A stretch of DNA of 64,000 nt from Bacteroidota bacterium (GTDB taxonomy: Bacteria > Bacteroidota > Bacteroidia > Flavobacteriales > Schleiferiaceae): contig JANSYJ010000004.1 of the NCBI GenBank assembly GCA_024742495.1, forward strand, positions 62,001 to 126,000. Direction: 5' to 3'. The first letter of the stretch is position 1. Every line of letters starts with the position of its first letter. Below, piece by piece: positions 3,918 through 52,848 of the stretch. A model generated the notes under the pieces. The model saw only the letters and a program-made list of their open reading frames with translations, was not told the DNA's origin and did no database searches. A program made the translations under genes and the position numbers.

Positions 3918-5474
3918 TTATTTCTTACTACTAATTGGTTTTGGAGGCACCTGGGATGACCAAAACACAGACTCCATAGTTTGCTCGTAAATCTTGAAAG
4001 CCTCCGCTTCATCCTTTAAATAGCGGGAAGGCTGGTAAAACATCCTTCGCAATTTGCGTGGATCCTTATCGCCCAGCCACTCATCTCTCATCCATTCCAA
4101 ATAATAGCCTTGCGCACTTAGGAAAAGAGCGTAGGGCTCCGCACTTGGCAAGGAAAAACTAAGCAAAAACTGATCGCCTGGCATCGATAGCATCGGAGAC
4201 TCGGGACTGTTAAGCTGCTTTAAGTGCGAAGGTGACTTTAGGCCATTGTAGTCGACATTATTAGGCTCAATGATTTGGGGTTCTAATTGCCCTTTGATTA
4301 CAGTAAGGTTTGCACGATCAATGCGCCATAGACCCTTATTCATTCTTAACTTCAATTTGAGATTCCTGCTTGAAACATTCGTCAGTTTCAATAGCTGCCT
4401 ATTAACGGCGATGGGGCCTGTTTCGTAAAATGCTCCTTGTAATTCCCAGCTCGAATTCTCTTCGTTCCAAAGCAAAACTTCTAGCTCTCCAAGCTCATTT
4501 TTAAAACCTCCATCCATGGTTTCGTAAAAGTTTCCCTTTCTTTCAAGATCGGAGAGAATTTCAGAATAGGCATCCCCCATATAAGAAATTGCATTGTTGA
4601 TGAAATAGGTGGTCATTAGGCTTTGGCGAAAATCGAGGACCAAGCCAATATCCTGTCCTTCCGGAATTCCTTCAAAGTCTAGTACTAACTCTTCCTTAGT
4701 CGCTAAGTCTTCACTATCTGCCTCGGAATAGTACTCTTCTTGGTCTGCCTCCTTAAATAGCGAGGCGTTTATTGGCTTATACAAACCTTTTCCAGCAAAG
4801 AATTTCCCTGCTCTACTTTGGTATACCTGTTCATCATTTTTAGCCTTGAAGGCATAAAGCTTTATAGATCTTAATACATGTGTTTCTTGTGCCTCATTCT
4901 TCATCAGCAAATCAAAACTTGGCCCTTGGTGTGATGAAATTTGAAGGTCGTCGATATCGGCATATTCTAATGATGGCATTATAGCATTGGAGAAGCCCTC
5001 CGCACGAGCGGAAAAAAGACCTTGATCCTCGTTTGTGTAAAAGGTTGGACAGGAACCAAAGCAGGCTTTCGGGTTAGCGAGGCAAACTATACTGATCGTG
5101 GTATTAACCAATGTTAAGGGCAGCAGCATGGCGTGACCATTGTTTAGTGCTAACTCCTTGTTAACCTCAAAAAAGACAACGCTATCGATGGGTAATAGTA
5201 AATCCTCATTTTTTAGCAAATCGCGATTATAATCGTAAACGTAGGCATAGCCGCTCACGGCCGAAGTATTAGTATCCACAGTCCACTCTCCCGGAAAAAA
5301 ATAAACCGAGCCATTCTTTAGATGCGCCTTTAAAACCGTGGGAGCTTCCGTTTCTGTTTGCTTTTGAGTGGCTGCCTGCGCATCCTTGTAGGTCCATTGA
5401 AATTTATGTTCCTTACAGGATGTGCTTAGGATTAATCCTAAAATGAGGATGGCGAAAAATGAGGAAGTCTTCAT
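3918..5474 (-). CDS. Large lipoprotein of unknown function with a cysteine cluster
   Basis: A 518-residue predicted lipoprotein: MKTSS, hydrophobic core, lipobox LSTSC with Cys20. I do not recognise a named domain. A short conserved-looking cysteine stretch, CLANPKACFGSCPTFY, lies at about residues 130-147 and could form disulfides in the periplasm or bind something. The rest looks like beta-rich extracellular sequence. It is the first gene of a two-gene operon with the smaller lipoprotein downstream. A perfect -7 element (TACCTTTG) lies 22 bases before the ATG, and the gene is divergent from the DUF1684 gene. Function unknown. Confidence 0.75.
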   Translation of the reverse strand: MKTSSFFAILILGLILSTSCKEHKFQWTYKDAQAATQKQTETEAPTVLKAHLKNGSVYFFPGEWTVDTNTSAVSGYAYVYDYNRDLLKNEDLLLPIDSVVFFEVNKELALNNGHAMLLPLTLVNTTISIVCLANPKACFGSCPTFYTNEDQGLFSARAEGFSNAIMPSLEYADIDDLQISSHQGPSFDLLMKNEAQETHVLRSIKLYAFKAKNDEQVYQSRAGKFFAGKGLYKPINASLFKEADQEEYYSEADSEDLATKEELVLDFEGIPEGQDIGLVLDFRQSLMTTYFINNAISYMGDAYSEILSDLERKGNFYETMDGGFKNELGELEVLLWNEENSSWELQGAFYETGPIAVNRQLLKLTNVSSRNLKLKLRMNKGLWRIDRANLTVIKGQLEPQIIEPNNVDYNGLKSPSHLKQLNSPESPMLSMPGDQFLLSFSLPSAEPYALFLSAQGYYLEWMRDEWLGDKDPRKLRRMFYQPSRYLKDEAEAFKIYEQTMESVFWSSQVPPKPISSKK

Positions 5475-5496
5475 TATACTAAATTTTGACCTTTCT

Positions 5497-5504
5497 CAAA
5501 GGTA
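5497..5504 (-). promoter_or_regulatory. -7 promoter element TACCTTTG for the 518-residue lipoprotein gene
   Basis: An exact match to the Bacteroidota -7 consensus TAnnTTTG on the minus strand, 22 bases before the ATG at 5474. It sits just upstream of the -33 region of the opposing DUF1684 promoter, so the two divergent promoters are interleaved within about 40 bases. Confidence 0.55.
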
Positions 5505-5508
5505 GCTT

Positions 5509-5537
5509 TTTGCAAATGGCGAGAAGCGCTACTTTTG
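5509..5537 (+). promoter_or_regulatory. Promoter of the DUF1684 gene: TTTG, 17 bases, TACTTTTG
   Basis: TTTG (5509-5512) and an exact -7 element TACTTTTG (5530-5537) are 17 bases apart. Only four bases (GGAG) separate the -7 element from the ATG at 5542, so transcription would begin at or very near the start codon. Confidence 0.6.
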
Positions 5538-5541
5538 GGAG

Positions 5542-6156
5542 ATGAGAAGTTTTATACCCTTAATATGCTTTTGTTTTTGCACTGGCCTTAGCGCCCAAAG
5601 TTCGCTGATGGACAGCCTGATATGGCAAAACTATCAGTATCGGCATCAGCAAAATTTAGAGTTTTCAGATTCGCTAGAGTCACCATTAGAAGAAAAAGAT
5701 CGCCTTGAGTTTGAAAGCCTAGACTGGTATCCCCTTGACACTAATTTTATTGTTTGGGCCAGAATGGAGCGCAGTCCTGAGGCGGAGGTCTTTGAAATGC
5801 CCACTAGCACGGATCGCAAACCAGAATATCGTCAATATGCAATACTACATTTTACTTTAGGCGATAGCACTTTTGCCGTTCCCATTTATCGGAATATGCG
5901 CCTAAAGCAGATACCCATGTATAAGGACCATCTCTTTTTTCCTTTTAGTGATCTGACCAATAGCTTCGGCACATATGGCGGTGGTCGTTATCTCGATTTA
6001 CAAATCCCAGAGGGAGATTCCGTACTGATTGATTTTAATCGGGCTTATAACCCCTACTGCGCCTATAATGGAAAGTATTCCTGTCCCATTCCTCCTCGGA
6101 AGAATCAAATTAACTTTCACATAAAGGCGGGGGTAAGGTATCGTGTGACGCATTAA
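5542..6156 (+). CDS. DUF1684 family secreted protein
   Basis: A 204-residue protein with an N-terminal signal peptide (MRSFIPLICFCFCTGLSAQ). The C-terminal half carries the DUF1684 hallmark: YGGGRYLDL, DFNRAYNPYCAY, YSCPIPP and a final basic IKAGVRY segment. The family is common in Bacteroidota and Actinobacteria; its biochemical role is unknown. A -7 promoter element ends four bases before the ATG, so the mRNA is predicted to be leaderless or nearly so. It is a single-gene unit, convergent with the large T9SS gene and separated from it by a GC-rich hairpin. Confidence 0.88.
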   Translation: MRSFIPLICFCFCTGLSAQSSLMDSLIWQNYQYRHQQNLEFSDSLESPLEEKDRLEFESLDWYPLDTNFIVWARMERSPEAEVFEMPTSTDRKPEYRQYAILHFTLGDSTFAVPIYRNMRLKQIPMYKDHLFFPFSDLTNSFGTYGGGRYLDLQIPEGDSVLIDFNRAYNPYCAYNGKYSCPIPPRKNQINFHIKAGVRYRVTH

Positions 6157-6168
6157 GAGGGGATTTAA

Positions 6169-6190
6169 GCCGCCCAAGAATTTAGGCGGC
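6169..6190. terminator. GC-rich hairpin between convergent genes
   Basis: GCCGCC (6169-6174) and GGCGGC (6185-6190) form a six-base-pair stem with a ten-base loop, between the stop codons of the DUF1684 gene and the large T9SS gene. There is no clear T run on either side, so this may be a weak bidirectional terminator or an mRNA 3'-end stabiliser. Confidence 0.45.
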
Positions 6191-6207
6191 CCAAACCATT
6201 ATTCAAT

Positions 6208-9200
6208 TTACCTTTTTAACACTTTCAATACCTCGCTGTAATCATTTCCGCTAACACGAACTAGATAAAAACCTGCTAGTAAATCTGACATATCCAGATT
6301 ATAAGTATTATTCGAATTTTTAGCGACCAGTGATTTAATTAGCTTTCCTCCTAAGCTTAGAACTTCAAGTTTCACTTCATCACCTCTGACTCCTGATAAT
6401 TCAATTGTCAAGACGTCCTCAACCGGTTGTGGATATGCCTTAATGTTGCTAATTGCGTCCTTACTAGTCTCTTGTTCAAAGTTATTACGCTTATAAGTAT
6501 AGCCCGCAAAGCTTAAGCGGCATAGATCAAGTTTATAACTAAACTCTTCAGCCGGTATTTCATCGTTAAAATAGGATTGTTCTTGCTCACACACGCAATT
6601 CCAATATCCCGCACGTTGGCTTTGTGTAAAATTGAAAGTCCAATTGGTTCGATTATTTAGTAGGCTCAGACTTTCGCTATAATGTCCAGCTACTCGAAGG
6701 GCGTGCACTTTATCTAAGTTTAATTGAAAGATTTTAGCATGATCGGTGCTATCGGTAAAATTTAATGCAAGCAAGCAGTCATCGACAATTGAAATTAGGT
6801 CTTCCAGCTCCTCTACTGGAGTTTGGGCTTCACCTTCATTATGTTGCAACTGACCTTGCTGGTATGCCTGATTTAAAGCTTGATGCATGGCATTGTAAGC
6901 CAAGTTCAAATAAGCTTGGCTATTTGAATCTAGACTAGAAATATTCCCTTGTAAGATCGCGATTAAGCTCTGTAAAGCACCTTTATCGTTTCGCAAGTCT
7001 TCACCAAAACTCAATTGACCTAAAGCCTGATCTAAGGCTTGGTACAAAGGGGTTTCAATATAAACCTGCCCGTTACTCACTTTCCCACTAGTAGCCTGTA
7101 ATTCACCCAAGGTTGCGTAGCTAGGGTGGAGATCCACCGCCGGTCCGCTATTGCAATTTGGCCCACTGTAATTATCTTCACTTAAATCCACCGCAATACC
7201 TGCCATTAAATTCATTGGATTGGTACAACTCGTTACATTCAGCTCAAAGTAATCGCTGATGCTCGTAAAGCTCGCATTTACCGGTACTTGAAACTTATTA
7301 TAATTGAAGTTTGCAAACTGATAATTAGAGCTATAGTCCAAATACGGCATATAACAATTCCAGGCTCCATCAATATGCCTAAAACTTGATGTAAGGGTGA
7401 GGGGCAAATCAAACTGATTGAAACCTTCGAATAAATAAATACCTCCGCCATTAGACGATCCAGACAGAATAATGTTTGCCGATTCATTCCAACGGAAAGT
7501 ATTGGAAGCATCATTGTTTAAGTAAACAATCGAGTTTTCGGATTTAACACCTACGCTATTGTTTTCTATGGTATTACAATCACCTCTAAGATCAATATCA
7601 TTTACGTGCACCCCGGTCGAAAATCCATTAATACTTGAGTTTTTTAAATTTAGCATACTTCCCTCTTGCCCTTGGAGGTCAATTGCAGAGCCTGTGGACG
7701 AAATGCCCGTGATTGCCGAGAAGCCAAAGTTGGACTTACTTATAGTACTCGAACCATTGAGGTTTAAACCGTAAATGGCATGTCTGGTATTTCCAGTAAA
7801 ATCACAATTCCGAACCACATGAAATCCACCGTTCCATTTAATACCATCATAATTGTTTTGAATAAGGCAATCCCGAAACTCGGTATGACCAATTGCTCCT
7901 GGCCCTGAGACGAGAATTCCTGGCTTACCTTCTTTGATCTTTACTCTACGTAAATAGTTAATGCTGCTATTATTCCATATTCGTAAGCCCCCATGAATTT
8001 GTCCGGGCTTAGTACATCTTATTTCAGCATCAATCACATCTATTGGGCTTGAAACGAATAAAAAAGCATTTGGTGCTATTTCAACAGCACCGTTTTGAAT
8101 AATTACCTCGTCGAAAATATTCTGATCCTTATCCTTTAAGATCGTTTCATTTCGAATTTCCAAGAGGGTTTGATTTTTAAAGGTGGGGTTGTGGCCTATC
8201 AGATGAAGCTTCGCCCCAGCTTCAATGTCCAAATAGGAATCCATATCGCGCATTAGTTGATTATTAACCATGATCCATGGAATTTCTTGATCGAAGATCA
8301 GTACACCATTAGAATTCGCGGGAATTATCGCACCCGCCTTCACGCTTAACTTACCTTGAATTAAAACAGAAGAGCCAAATTGATTAAAGTTGAAATCGGC
8401 CGAGCTTTCATAGATTAATTCACCACCATCTTCCACTACAATTTGCCCCGCTTCGAATTGAACAACATCTCTAAGTCTGAGAACACCACCCTTTTGAACG
8501 ATAAGCTTTGAATTTGGATTAATAACTATACTACCGCCGGGGTTTAGGTTTACCTCTGCACCCGATTGTATATAGAGGTAAGCGGTTTTTTCACTTGGGT
8601 CATTGGCCCCTAACTCAAGCTTGCCCCCTTGATTAATATTGATGGTTTTAGAAAAGCCACAGCCAGATCCTAGGAACACTCGACTAAGACTCCCATCTCT
8701 GGACATTGGCCGCTGAGGTCCCCCTTCATAATAAGGCCTATTTGCGTTTAAAAACAAAGTCCCGCCACTGTTGATATCAACTCCAGGAAGCGCAGCATTT
8801 TCAAGGGGGTTATTCCATTTTTTTGTTAATGTACTGCCAATGTCTTGACCTAAGATATCCTCTCCCCTGAGTACCTCATTGATGAAAAAATTCATGTTGG
8901 CATTGGTTGTTTTAACATGAGGCTCACTATTCTGCAACGCCGCTATGTATGCGTCAAATGGGCTAAGATTCGTGATGAATGGATTGTATTCATTTAAATT
9001 TGATTTTAAGTCTAAATGCCAATTAGCTGTATTTACTCCCAAAGCCGAAATACTTGGTATAAAACCATGACTTGAATGAATAAGATTAACATTTGAGGTG
9101 CCACATCCCCAGCCCTTTAAGCCACCTTTAATTCCACCGGCAACTTCGGTCATGTCATCTCGGAGGGAGGCTGGTGCATTAAAAATTGGAAGCATATTCT

Positions 9201-50341: not shown

Positions 50342-51718
50342 TCACTTTTTTGATTTTCGATTTTTCCGACGCCAAGGCGCATCGATCTGCCAGTCCCCAG
50401 CCATAATTGAACCATAGGGAATGATTTCATCGACAATGGTGCCCAGTTCAAATTCCTTCATCTGCTCACGCACGGAATCTGCCTTCTTATAAGCTGATGG
50501 CAATTCAGATATATCGATCTGATTAGAATAAAAACGAATATCAAGACCCTTGGTTTCTTCGGCAAAAATTGCATCAATAGAACGATCTGCATTTAGTCTT
50601 TTATGTTTAGATCGGCTCATGTTACGACCCGCGCCATGCGGAGCAAAACCTAAATTGCTATCGGTGGTTTCCCCTTTAACGATAAGCACGGGCTCCGACA
50701 TATTAAGCGGGATTAATCGCAATTGCTGATAACTATCGGGAACAAATGCATCACTTAAAGGCGTGGCCCCTTTAGCGTGATAAAAAAGATCGCCCTCCTT
50801 AAAAACAAAGTTGTGTTCATTCCAAAAACGTTCTTTCATATCCACCTTTAACAAGGCTAGGGTTGCATCGTGGATACTTTCGTGATTGGTTTTTGTCCAA
50901 GCGCGCACCAATTGCAATGCTTCCCAGTAGAACTTACCTTTTTCGGAGTCGTAGGGTATCCAGCCATTACCTTTAGAAGTTTGGGGCGATATTTCTTGTC
51001 GAAGTGATTCTGCCAAACGCATTCCATTTTTATAAAGATTAGCTCCTAATCCTCTGCTGCCGTGATGGGTAACCATAATGGTTTCTCCTGTTTTTGCCGA
51101 CTGCCCCACGAATAGAAAGTGGTTACCATCACCTTGGGTACCCATATGACCTTTGGCTACCGACATGCTCGCCTGATTGTTAAGGAAGAAATTCCCTTTC
51201 ATACGATCTTCTAAAGCCACTGGTAAATCGAAGGGGTCCTTTCTTGGACCACCGCCAAAATGCGTAATCGAATGTGCGGCATTCATTACTTTTTTAGGCT
51301 CCACATAGCCAAAGGAGGTCATCATTACGGAACAGCAAATATCGGCCGAGTGCATGGCTGGATGAATGGCATTCTGTGTCGCCACAATGCCACCAACAGG
51401 TATCTGTCCGATGGGCCCAGCTGGACAGGCATCTGGCATTACCGCTCCCTTTACAGCTGTAGGGGTTAGCATTACGGCATCCATGGTTTCAAAAACACGC
51501 TTTACGTTTTCGCGCTCCTCTTCCTGCTCGGGCCTTATATTCTTACTATAAAATGGTGGCTGCACATGCGGGTCTATAATTTTTGGTGCCGCATCATCCA
51601 GAAAGGACCTTAAGCGGTCGCCCTCCAGTTGTTTTGCATTTACTTCGGCAATGGCTTTCTTAAACCACTTTCCCGGGCGATAGCCCATCTCAACTAATTC
51701 TTTTCCTGTAATTTCCAT
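50342..51718 (-). CDS. rtcB: RtcB-family RNA ligase
   Basis: A 458-residue RtcB-type ligase, which joins RNA 2',3'-cyclic phosphate and 5'-hydroxyl ends using GTP and Mn. Metal/active-site motifs: AMHSADICCSV (Asp, Cys), GTQGDGNHFLFVGQ, VTHHGSRGLG and APHGAGRNMSR, whose histidine corresponds to the guanylylated one. ATG 51718 (MEITGKELVEMGY) was chosen; a longer in-frame form covers the promoter. TACTTTCG, a near -7 element, lies 21 bases upstream. It is divergent from a WYL-domain regulator and shares a dyad operator with it. The motif context (SADICC in place of GFDIGC) places it in a divergent RtcB subgroup. Confidence 0.93.
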   Translation of the reverse strand: MEITGKELVEMGYRPGKWFKKAIAEVNAKQLEGDRLRSFLDDAAPKIIDPHVQPPFYSKNIRPEQEEERENVKRVFETMDAVMLTPTAVKGAVMPDACPAGPIGQIPVGGIVATQNAIHPAMHSADICCSVMMTSFGYVEPKKVMNAAHSITHFGGGPRKDPFDLPVALEDRMKGNFFLNNQASMSVAKGHMGTQGDGNHFLFVGQSAKTGETIMVTHHGSRGLGANLYKNGMRLAESLRQEISPQTSKGNGWIPYDSEKGKFYWEALQLVRAWTKTNHESIHDATLALLKVDMKERFWNEHNFVFKEGDLFYHAKGATPLSDAFVPDSYQQLRLIPLNMSEPVLIVKGETTDSNLGFAPHGAGRNMSRSKHKRLNADRSIDAIFAEETKGLDIRFYSNQIDISELPSAYKKADSVREQMKEFELGTIVDEIIPYGSIMAGDWQIDAPWRRKNRKSKK

Positions 51719-51739
51719 CGTTCCTAAATGAATCTGAAG

Positions 51740-51747
51740 CGAAAGTA
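51740..51747 (-). promoter_or_regulatory. Near-consensus -7 element TACTTTCG for rtcB
   Basis: On the minus strand, one base off TAnnTTTG, 21 bases before the rtcB ATG. The dyad at 51757-51775 lies ten bases upstream of it. Confidence 0.45.
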
Positions 51748-51756
51748 TCACACTTC

Positions 51757-51775
51757 TGCGCAAGCATTTTGCGCA
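51757..51775. promoter_or_regulatory. 19-bp dyad operator between rtcB and the WYL regulator
   Basis: TGCGCAA (51757-51763), GCATT, TTGCGCA (51769-51775): a perfect 7-bp inverted repeat with a five-base spacer. Its right half contains the -33 TTTG (51768-51771) of the WYL gene promoter. Likely the binding site of the WYL-domain regulator. Confidence 0.62.
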
Positions 51776-51798
51776 CATTATTAATTGATTTACTTTCG
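51768..51798 (+). promoter_or_regulatory. Promoter of the WYL regulator: TTTG, 19 bases, TACTTTCG
   Basis: TTTG (51768-51771) and TACTTTCG (51791-51798) are 19 bases apart, the favoured spacing for Bacteroidota promoters. The -7 element ends three bases before the ATG at 51802. The -33 half overlaps the dyad, which suggests autoregulation. Confidence 0.55.
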
Positions 51799-51801
51799 GG
51801 C

Positions 51802-52848
51802 ATGGCTTGGACAAAAAAAGCACTTATTAGATACCGTACGATTGATCGTTGTCTTCAAAACCATCAACGAAAGTGGAGCCTAAATGATTTGCGTGAAGCA
51901 TGTAGCGATGCTCTGCACGAGCTTGAGGGCAGACCGGTAGATATAAGCAAACGCACTACGCAGTTGGATTTGCAGATAATGCGAAGCGAAAAACTTGGCT
52001 ATGAAGCGCCCATTGAAGTTTACCAAAAAAAGTATTATCGCTACGCTGATCCGGATTATAAGATAAGTGACATTCCCTTAAATGAAGGAGACCTTAACGT
52101 GATAACTGAGTCTATAGAAATACTGAAGCAGTTCAAGGACTTCTCTTTATTCCGAGATCTAAATGGGGTCTTTCAAAAATTAGAGGATCAAATACATCAA
52201 AATGAACAAAGGGCTTCGCTTATTCATTTTGACAAAAACGAGCGCTTAAGAGGCTTAAACTATTTAGATGAAATTTATCAAGCGATACTAAAAGGTATTG
52301 TGCTAGACATACGCTATCAGTCTTACAGAAATTCTAATGTGCAGCGCTTTAAGTTTCATGCCATCTTTTTAAAGGAGTACAATAATCGCTGGTTTGTAAT
52401 AGGACATAAAAATGACTCTAAGCGGGTATTCAATTTCGCGCTTGATCGAATTCAAGGTATGGAAGCCGATTTAAAAAGCACTTATCAAAGGCTAAACCTG
52501 GACCCAGATGAATTTTATAAAGACACCTTTGGGGTAACCGTTTTAAGTCCCAAAGACCTTATTGAAATTGAGCTTTGGGTTAATCCGAGCAATGCACCTT
52601 ATGTAATTTCGAAACGCATTCATGCCAGTCAGAAGACCATCCAAGAGTACCCAGATGGTTCAGTAATTATAAGCATCAGGGTACATCATAATTTTGAAAT
52701 TGAACGGCATCTGTTTGGCTTTGCCGATAATATCAGAGTCCTAAAACCGGAACGCCTGGTGAAGCGCATCAAACACAAATTAGAGATGGCGGCCAAGCAA
52801 TATGATAAAGAATTTCACCTGTACCGAGAAAAGCAATCGATCACTTAA
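51802..52848 (+). CDS. WYL-domain transcriptional regulator
   Basis: A 348-residue regulator. The N terminus (1-75) is a winged helix-turn-helix: ALIRYRTIDRCLQNHQRKWS with recognition-helix region SKRTTQLDLQIMR. The middle region holds a WYL domain (about 160-225; IVLDIRYQSYRN, NNRWFVIGHKND, in which the WYL triplet reads WFV), and the last ~90 residues form a WCX-like C-terminal extension. WYL domains commonly sense nucleic-acid or nucleotide ligands. It is divergent from rtcB with a shared dyad, so it probably controls RNA repair in response to RNA damage; this is inference. Confidence 0.88.
   Translation: MAWTKKALIRYRTIDRCLQNHQRKWSLNDLREACSDALHELEGRPVDISKRTTQLDLQIMRSEKLGYEAPIEVYQKKYYRYADPDYKISDIPLNEGDLNVITESIEILKQFKDFSLFRDLNGVFQKLEDQIHQNEQRASLIHFDKNERLRGLNYLDEIYQAILKGIVLDIRYQSYRNSNVQRFKFHAIFLKEYNNRWFVIGHKNDSKRVFNFALDRIQGMEADLKSTYQRLNLDPDEFYKDTFGVTVLSPKDLIEIELWVNPSNAPYVISKRIHASQKTIQEYPDGSVIISIRVHHNFEIERHLFGFADNIRVLKPERLVKRIKHKLEMAAKQYDKEFHLYREKQSIT

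Follow-up and report, generated by a model that had tools for sequence, protein, structure and literature searches.

Among WYL-domain factors of solved structure, the one closest in predicted fold to the regulator treated here is DriD of Caulobacter crescentus, a homodimer (PMC11804915) that a preprint reports to occupy a 20-bp pseudopalindrome over the -35 region, at a constant distance from the -10 element of targets with poor -35 boxes, and to have a bidirectional promoter beside the driD gene (PMC12340889). Another WYL system, PafBC, is described as acting by sigma adaptation at promoters with a -26 motif (PMC11804915). Regulation of the RNA ligase gene rtcB has been worked out so far for two unrelated regulators, RtcR in enterobacteria and TrcR in a cyanobacterium. 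RtcR controls rtcBA in Salmonella and other bacteria, with tRNA fragments as the reported signal (PMC7790460), and TrcR of Anabaena is reported as a ribbon-helix-helix repressor that acts at the -10 element and governs rtcB, slipin, rimK and a tRNA array (PMC10272220). Here we describe a candidate third solution in a 64,000-nucleotide stretch of a Schleiferiaceae genome (Bacteroidota; assembly GCA_024742495.1, contig JANSYJ010000004.1, positions 62,001 to 126,000), hereafter the window, in which rtcB and the gene for a WYL-domain regulator diverge from a shared 19-bp dyad. The recurrence of the same regulator and site before RNA-repair genes in many Bacteroidota suggests a shared RNA-repair switch.

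Promoters of Bacteroidota take the form TTTG at -33 and TAnnTTTG at -7, and against this form the parts of the locus can be given as follows:

50342 to 51718, minus strand: rtcB, 458 amino acids, RtcB-type RNA ligase of a Bacteroidota sub-family (PF01139, E 2.2e-34)
51740 to 51747, minus strand: -7-like element of rtcB, TACTTTCG (consensus TAnnTTTG), with 23 nt between its TTTG position and the operator centre
51757 to 51775, no strand: putative operator TGCGCAA-GCATT-TTGCGCA, a perfect 19-bp dyad with a spacer of five nucleotides, centre 51766
51768 to 51771, plus strand: TTTG at -33 in the regulator promoter, extending into the operator's right arm, 19 nt 5' of the regulator's -7 element
51791 to 51798, plus strand: -7-like element of the regulator gene, TACTTTCG, its TTTG position 29 nt from the operator centre
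51802 to 52848, plus strand: WYL-domain regulator, 348 amino acids, DriD-like, with a winged helix-turn-helix (wHTH), WYL and WCX architecture (PF13280 WYL and PF25583 WCX by Pfam)

The original prediction, made from the sequence of the window, had described a divergent gene pair and a perfect dyad that lies between the two -7 elements and overlaps the regulator's -33 TTTG; coordinates, Pfam and the sequence itself bear this out, with 83 nt from ATG to ATG. Both ATG starts are backed by aligned relatives, the list of open reading frames (ORFs) having offered longer GTG and TTG starts. The two -7-like octamers carry TTCG where the consensus has TTTG, and the rtcB element in the window has no TTTG 18-21 nt upstream.

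Taken by itself the dyad match is not striking: with up to two mismatches allowed, the window contains one match against 0.58 expected, and 42 of 100 shuffles contain at least one, so that the relaxed dyad was rejected as stand-alone evidence. The whole genome (3.6 Mb) has one perfect copy and no site that differs at just one position; allowing up to three mismatches yields 138 sites, where the reversed control pattern yields 64. A wider regulon within the window's own genome was also rejected, there being no second site with fewer than two mismatches. At the level of sequence comparison, the question of chance is settled by the conservation of the operator in relatives.

Relatives were sampled as 196 genomes of the same order, the window's genome included. 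RtcB was matched in 47 of them and its window-type sub-family in 24 of these 47, with 56-78% identity to the window's protein in the other 23 genomes; a WYL ortholog (at least 40% identity; 40-70% among the orthologs) was found in 41 genomes, and eight more have only a 30-35% match. All 24 genomes with the sub-family RtcB also carry the WYL ortholog, and RtcB is present in all 41 genomes with the ortholog (Fisher 3e-36; by genus, 11/11 among 72, 4.5e-10, related genomes not being independent). The adjacency that the original prediction proposed to look for in related genomes was found: besides the window, 19 sub-family rtcB loci (L005, L007-L016, L018-L024 and L026) have a divergent WYL ortholog in the fetched 1.5-kb flank, and L028 has one beside a canonical RtcB. 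In L006, L017, L025 and L027 no divergent WYL ortholog was seen in the 1.5-kb flank; three of these four genomes have the WYL gene 4-5 kb from rtcB (L036, L037, L038). In the fourth, genome G105, the WYL gene is 0.68 Mb from rtcB, yet a site precedes rtcB.

Each of 21 distinct rtcB-WYL intergenic regions contains a recognisable copy of the dyad, with the consensus TGCGCAATnnTTTTGCG(C/T)A. Scanning the 196 genomes with the arms fixed and spacers of 3-7 gave 84 forward sites against 11 for the reversed pattern, and among the 75 of 84 that were listed, 47 of 49 spacer-5 sites lie in WYL genomes, against 6 of 26 for spacers 4, 6 and 7. A symmetric matrix was then built from the 21 sites, with a cut-off score of 18, which is reached in 72 of 80 named loci (the best 80 of 585 relatives confirmed in genome_contigs, from Flavobacteriia, Saprospiraceae, Crocinitomix, Fluviicola and others) and in 0.9% of first-order Markov shuffles. 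Related species occur among the training and the test loci, so that these are not independent events. The remaining eight loci have best scores of 13.8-17.4. RtcB lies within the locus in 60 of the 80 and some RNA-repair family in 75, and ortholog loci from outside the order show the site in 14/16 and RtcB in 12/16. At loci of WYL paralogs (29-35% identity), neither RtcB nor a score-18 site was found (0/21 for each, L157 and L283 being the same gene counted twice). The original prediction had staked itself on conservation of the dyad among related rtcB-WYL pairs, and the dyad is conserved in the 21 regions, at 72/80 named loci and at 14/16 beyond the order. The proposed shared module, with the dyad as the regulator's site, is strongly supported by comparative genomics; what the prediction missed is the wider set of targets.

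This wider set is defined by sites within 350 nt upstream of a gene. In addition to the sub-family rtcB, the box precedes genes for canonical RtcB, RlaP, TROVE/Ro60 and T4-type RNA ligase. Neighbours identified by Pfam are RlaP, Band-7, TROVE, T4-type RNA ligase, PNKP, an RF-1-type (PrfH-like) protein and a HopJ-family protein, and operator-bearing clusters further include RLIG1, an RNase T-type exonuclease, a metallophosphoesterase, Hen1_N and a PNKP ligase. Among 18 stretches fetched around distal sites, 11 contain a recognised RNA-repair gene, with TROVE immediately following the site in L137-L140, L142 and L143, Band-7 in L128, L131, L134 and L141, and Rnl with PNKP in L129; L130 and L133 have unreferenced genes in common with L131. 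Modules of RtcB, RlaP, Band-7, TROVE and Rnl/PNKP were reportedly catalogued in the 2016 survey of Burroughs and Aravind. A role of RlaP, TROVE and RNA ligases as RNA-repair modules is partly echoed elsewhere (PMC7824862). Five RtcB-PrfH-TPR stretches (L148, L151-L154) have no operator at a matrix score of at least 13, so not every RtcB is under this control.

The geometry of the promoters was compared for target genes outside the window that have a site within 350 nt upstream. There are 42 directly divergent rtcB-WYL regions, and the 41 scoring at least 17 were aligned; besides the operator, the most conserved blocks are CAAA at -26 to -23, in the rtcB -7 element, and a run of T at +29 to +31, in the WYL -7 element, and the WYL -33 TTTG is conserved at +2 to +5 from the operator centre. 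On the effector side, the -7 TTTG lies 23-24 nt from the operator centre in 88 of the 91 promoters with a clear -7 (94 examined), the operator core is A-rich in 93/94, and a -33 TTTG at 18-21 nt was found in 0/94. Promoters on the regulator side (WYL, c2, HopJ) have their -7 at 29-31 nt in 56 of the 74 with a clear one (87 examined), a -33 TTTG in 54/87 and a T-rich core in 85/87. The window's own spacings, 23 for rtcB and 29 for the WYL gene, match those of its relatives. The shared-dyad arrangement of the original prediction is real, the difference in position and orientation between effector and regulator sides having gone unnoticed there. Since divergent pairs share one operator, orientation is not independent in those pairs; at lone sites, which face no recognised regulator-type gene, 47/51 are at 23-24 nt and 50/51 are A-rich, and on their mirror side a clear -7 is lacking in 22, the other 29 being spread over 13 distances. 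The layout of DriD, with a site over the -35/-33 position, a constant distance to the -10/-7 element and a poor -35/-33 box, is found at the effector promoters.

The WYL and WCX domains of the regulator score above the Pfam cut-offs and place it among the WYL factors. Its model has a mean predicted local distance difference test value (pLDDT) of 79 and a predicted template modelling score (pTM) of 0.45; the predicted N-terminal part aligns with wHTH proteins and with DriD and BrxR chains. Upon re-examination of the Foldseek matches, the C-terminal domain matched DriD best (Z 16.5, root-mean-square deviation (rmsd) 3.1, 191 residues), followed by BrxR (12.3), CapW (11.5) and PafBC (11.3), and a profile search agrees (8tp8, E 1.3e-6); the regulator and DriD share 18% identity in the structural alignment.

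From the gene arrangement, the conserved operator, its link to one ortholog group, the promoter geometry and the DriD-like predicted fold, all observed here, we infer binding, dimerisation, activation, a ligand and induction by RNA damage; the original prediction, too, had suggested a damage-induced switch and a nucleic-acid ligand. The protein would be a WYL factor of the DriD type that activates an RNA-repair regulon in answer to an RNA-cleavage signal and represses its own gene, a reading that we hold to be fairly likely from sequence, modelling and analogy. It would bind the 19-bp dyad, probably as a homodimer. At effector promoters such as that of rtcB the site would stand in for the absent -33 box at a constant spacing from -7, and binding, or a rearrangement triggered by ligand, would recruit RNA polymerase and so activate RNA repair; before the regulator gene the site lies over the -33 box, and binding there would limit the regulator's own expression. 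A repressor has no need of a site that takes the place of -33 with fixed orientation and distance, but an activator does, and it is this fixed geometry together with the likeness to DriD that leads us to read the protein as an effector activator and autorepressor. The WYL/WCX part would read the signal, most likely a product of RNA cleavage such as tRNA halves or 2',3'-cyclic-phosphate ends. Cyclic-phosphate RNAs have been proposed as possible ligands of CARF or WYL factors, and some such factors are said to regulate RNA repair (PMC9503650; see also PMC4012209).

Several observations weigh against this reading. The WYL ortholog is absent from 6 of the 47 RtcB genomes, 5/80 named loci have no member of the listed RNA-repair families in the vicinity, and among the orthologs outside the order 2/16 have no score-18 site (one reaches 17.0) and 4/16 lack an RtcB within about 10 kb. 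Among the paralog loci, L159 scores 17.9, just below the cut-off of 18. Around the distal sites, 5 of the 18 stretches (L135, L136, L144, L145, L146) show no recognised RNA-repair gene, and in L144 and L146 the site lies within an ORF. By a strict rule, 21/44 WYL promoters have no TTTG at 18-21 nt, and 15/51 lone sites show -7-like matches on the mirror side at 27-31 nt, so that unrecognised genes may face these sites. Whole-chain matches to DriD (Z 13-15) have an rmsd of 13-16, because the placement of the domains is uncertain (pTM 0.45).

The alternative that survives best is a pure repressor of the BrxR/CapW kind, in which a WYL dimer blocks both promoters until a ligand releases it. A repressor, too, could have its site close to both promoters. 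WYL repressors are known in BrxR and CapW, of which BrxR is described as binding inverted repeats with a 5-bp spacer (PMC9122601), and the regulator's -33 box falls within the operator here. We nevertheless find this somewhat unlikely in view of the effector promoters, none of which (0/94) has a -33 TTTG and nearly all of which have the site within 1 nt of the same position and in one orientation, as expected for activation, and in view of a fold that matches DriD better than BrxR or CapW.

The same regulator and operator could also answer to DNA damage, with RNA repair as one output. The nearest fold, DriD, was solved with single-stranded DNA (ssDNA), DriD and PafBC sense ssDNA and not RNA, which also counts against an RNA signal, and ssDNA is reported to activate PafBC (PMC11804915). 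The guess of ssDNA comes from these nearest relatives and the guess of RNA ends from the regulon itself: the box-linked genes identified by Pfam are RNA-repair genes, although most other neighbours are unannotated and may include DNA-repair genes, and RtcR, a dedicated regulator of rtcB, reportedly responds to tRNA fragments (PMC7790460). A DNA-damage signal seems to us unlikely. That the dyad serves WYL autoregulation only and rtcB is a passenger is highly improbable, for while regulators often adjoin genes unrelated to them and the WYL -33 box falls within the site, the box occurs with the same geometry at TROVE, RlaP, Rnl and RtcB promoters that face no recognised regulator-type gene, and in G105 it stands at an rtcB remote from the WYL gene.

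The activator reading can be carried further, to an "SOS response for RNA" across Bacteroidota, in which the WYL activator would sense RNA breaks directly and switch on several repair systems together with reserve tRNA arrays; this we put forward tentatively, as rather less than an even prospect. If true, RtcB, RlaP, Ro60, slipin, T4-type ligase and PNKP/Hen1 would act together, and the reserve arrays would replace tRNAs lost to anticodon nucleases. To our knowledge, no WYL transcription factor has yet been shown to read RNA damage, and the regulator would then be the first. Of the ortholog loci, 15/96 hold tRNA runs 3-18 genes long (L175, L176, L183, L194, L198, L200, L206, L213, L217, L218, L231 and others), as do 6/7 operator-selected loci examined; these 21 arrays sum to 153 tRNAs, among which Ala, Gly and Thr tRNAs are absent. 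The 96 ortholog loci have a density of 77 tRNAs per Mb (144 tRNAs no more than 2 kb from a site, 54 elsewhere), against 23 per Mb over 15 paralog loci, the latter from 6 tRNAs only. Such arrays may hold spares for tRNAs that anticodon nucleases cut. No tRNA was found in the window, and Rfam, applied to the window and six loci, returned tRNAs, RNase P and two minor matches, none of them in the window.

Two kinds of single tRNA-like gene were also seen. Between TROVE and rtcB, three loci have one with an unassignable four-base anticodon (L285:12913-12999, L286:12909-12995, L287:7857-7943), perhaps a Y-RNA-like partner of Ro60. Between the operator and a Band-7 gene, L036:6980-7064, L078:8158-8241 and L175:5111-5194 are tRNA-Tyr-like, and recall the Band-7-associated tRNA-like RNA that a 2016 RNA-repair survey is said to describe.

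The ligase of the window belongs to the same superfamily as NF007153 and TIGR03073 and, judged by its scores, lies outside those sub-families, being far below both NCBIfam equivalog cut-offs (77.4 against 407 bits and 52.9 against 271.8 bits). The original prediction had singled out the motifs SADICC and GTQGDGNHF as unusual; they are real, and they turn out to be features of the whole sub-family, in which the residues aligned to metal ligands and nucleophile are kept. In 16 aligned members S124, D126, C128, C129 and G193-F201 are invariant, with I or V at position 127, as are D126, C129, N199, H200, H218, H314 and H361, which in the alignment to 4dwr/1uc2 correspond to PhRtcB D95, C98, N202, H203, H234, H329 and H404; the stretch with D126 and C129 (PhRtcB D95/C98) aligns weakly, at 1.1 bits. 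From the residue roles in PhRtcB, we take these seven to be the metal ligands and the nucleophile His. PhRtcB E206 aligns with F203, and its LIPGSMG stretch with LIPLNMS; position 203 is not among the invariant columns of the 16 members, and N339 and M340 are invariant. Speculatively, the F203 and LNMS changes may bear on nucleotide use or contact.

Other features of the WYL proteins were noted in passing. Three long regulators of 576-579 amino acids (L036:3353-5083, L039:10798-12534, L078:6296-8023) have C-terminal extensions alike in all three (48-53% identity), which in L039 and L078, the two tested, are PhyH by Pfam (PF05721, Fe(II)/2-oxoglutarate dioxygenase-like); the idea that the extension is the c2 protein was rejected. 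The window's genome encodes a WYL paralog (L156, G000 contig C29; 33-35% identity) with other neighbours and no operator. A single-sequence query of viral_contigs gave no pattern match for homologs of the WYL protein. PADLOC assigned the WYL protein to generic CRISPR-associated WYL models and gave no match for RtcB, c2, RlaP, Band-7, TROVE, RNA ligase or c21.

Among the neighbouring genes, c2 (unannotated, about 205 amino acids, HD-like by eye, e.g. L073:9338-9952) occurs in 35/80 named loci, just before or near the WYL gene and mostly in Flavobacterium-type loci. The proteins c2, c5, c20 and c21 have no Pfam match, and in NCBIfam c21 alone was matched, far under the cut-off. A gene of about 110 amino acids that matches the HopJ-family query lies between operator and WYL gene in L037, L038, L040, L041 and L043 (PF08888, tested in L038). 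In L037, an AAA_13 ATPase (5161-7413) lies between the rlaP gene and an RlaP-type gene adjoining rtcB; its best PADLOC model is PDC-S06, with a weak PrrC match, and it is possible that it is an anticodon nuclease beside repair genes. The 189-nt rtcB-WYL region of L028 shows by eye a long inverted repeat, AATGTCC...GGACATT, between the operator and the canonical rtcB start, perhaps a hairpin of the 5' untranslated region.

A readable operator offers a direct handle on RNA-damage responses in Bacteroidota: the regulon can be listed by searching for the box, the unknown genes c2, c5, c20, c21 and the HopJ-family proteins are pointed towards RNA repair, and the question of what WYL domains sense becomes testable with a single reporter. 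In the literature searched, covering titles and the openings of abstracts, we recognised no WYL operator or regulon of RNA repair; the Burroughs and Aravind survey, which possibly mentions WYL neighbours, falls outside that scope.

When compared with the known systems, the Bacteroidota module resembles DriD in its WYL-factor fold, as predicted here, in a site over -35/-33 at fixed spacing with a weak or missing -35/-33 box, and in a bidirectional promoter, and differs from it in the linked genes, which are RNA-repair genes where DriD has DNA-damage genes and senses ssDNA. With BrxR and CapW it shares the WYL class, a related predicted fold and, in the case of BrxR, inverted repeats as reported binding sites (PMC9122601), whereas those two are repressors tied to phage-defence operons and have lower structural scores. 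Like RtcR it would be a dedicated regulator of rtcB, but RtcR is an AAA+ protein that depends on sigma-54 and carries a CARF domain, and Pfam shows neither in the WYL protein. Its loci, like the TrcR targets, hold rtcB, Band-7 and tRNA arrays (in L131 one protein is also weakly RimK-like, its match lying far under the cut-off), whereas TrcR is an unrelated protein acting at an unrelated site and the Bacteroidota regulator has WYL and WCX domains and a WYL-factor fold. The best reading of the sequence and model comparisons is that the Bacteroidota system is a counterpart of RtcR and of cyanobacterial TrcR, run by an unrelated, DriD-like regulator.

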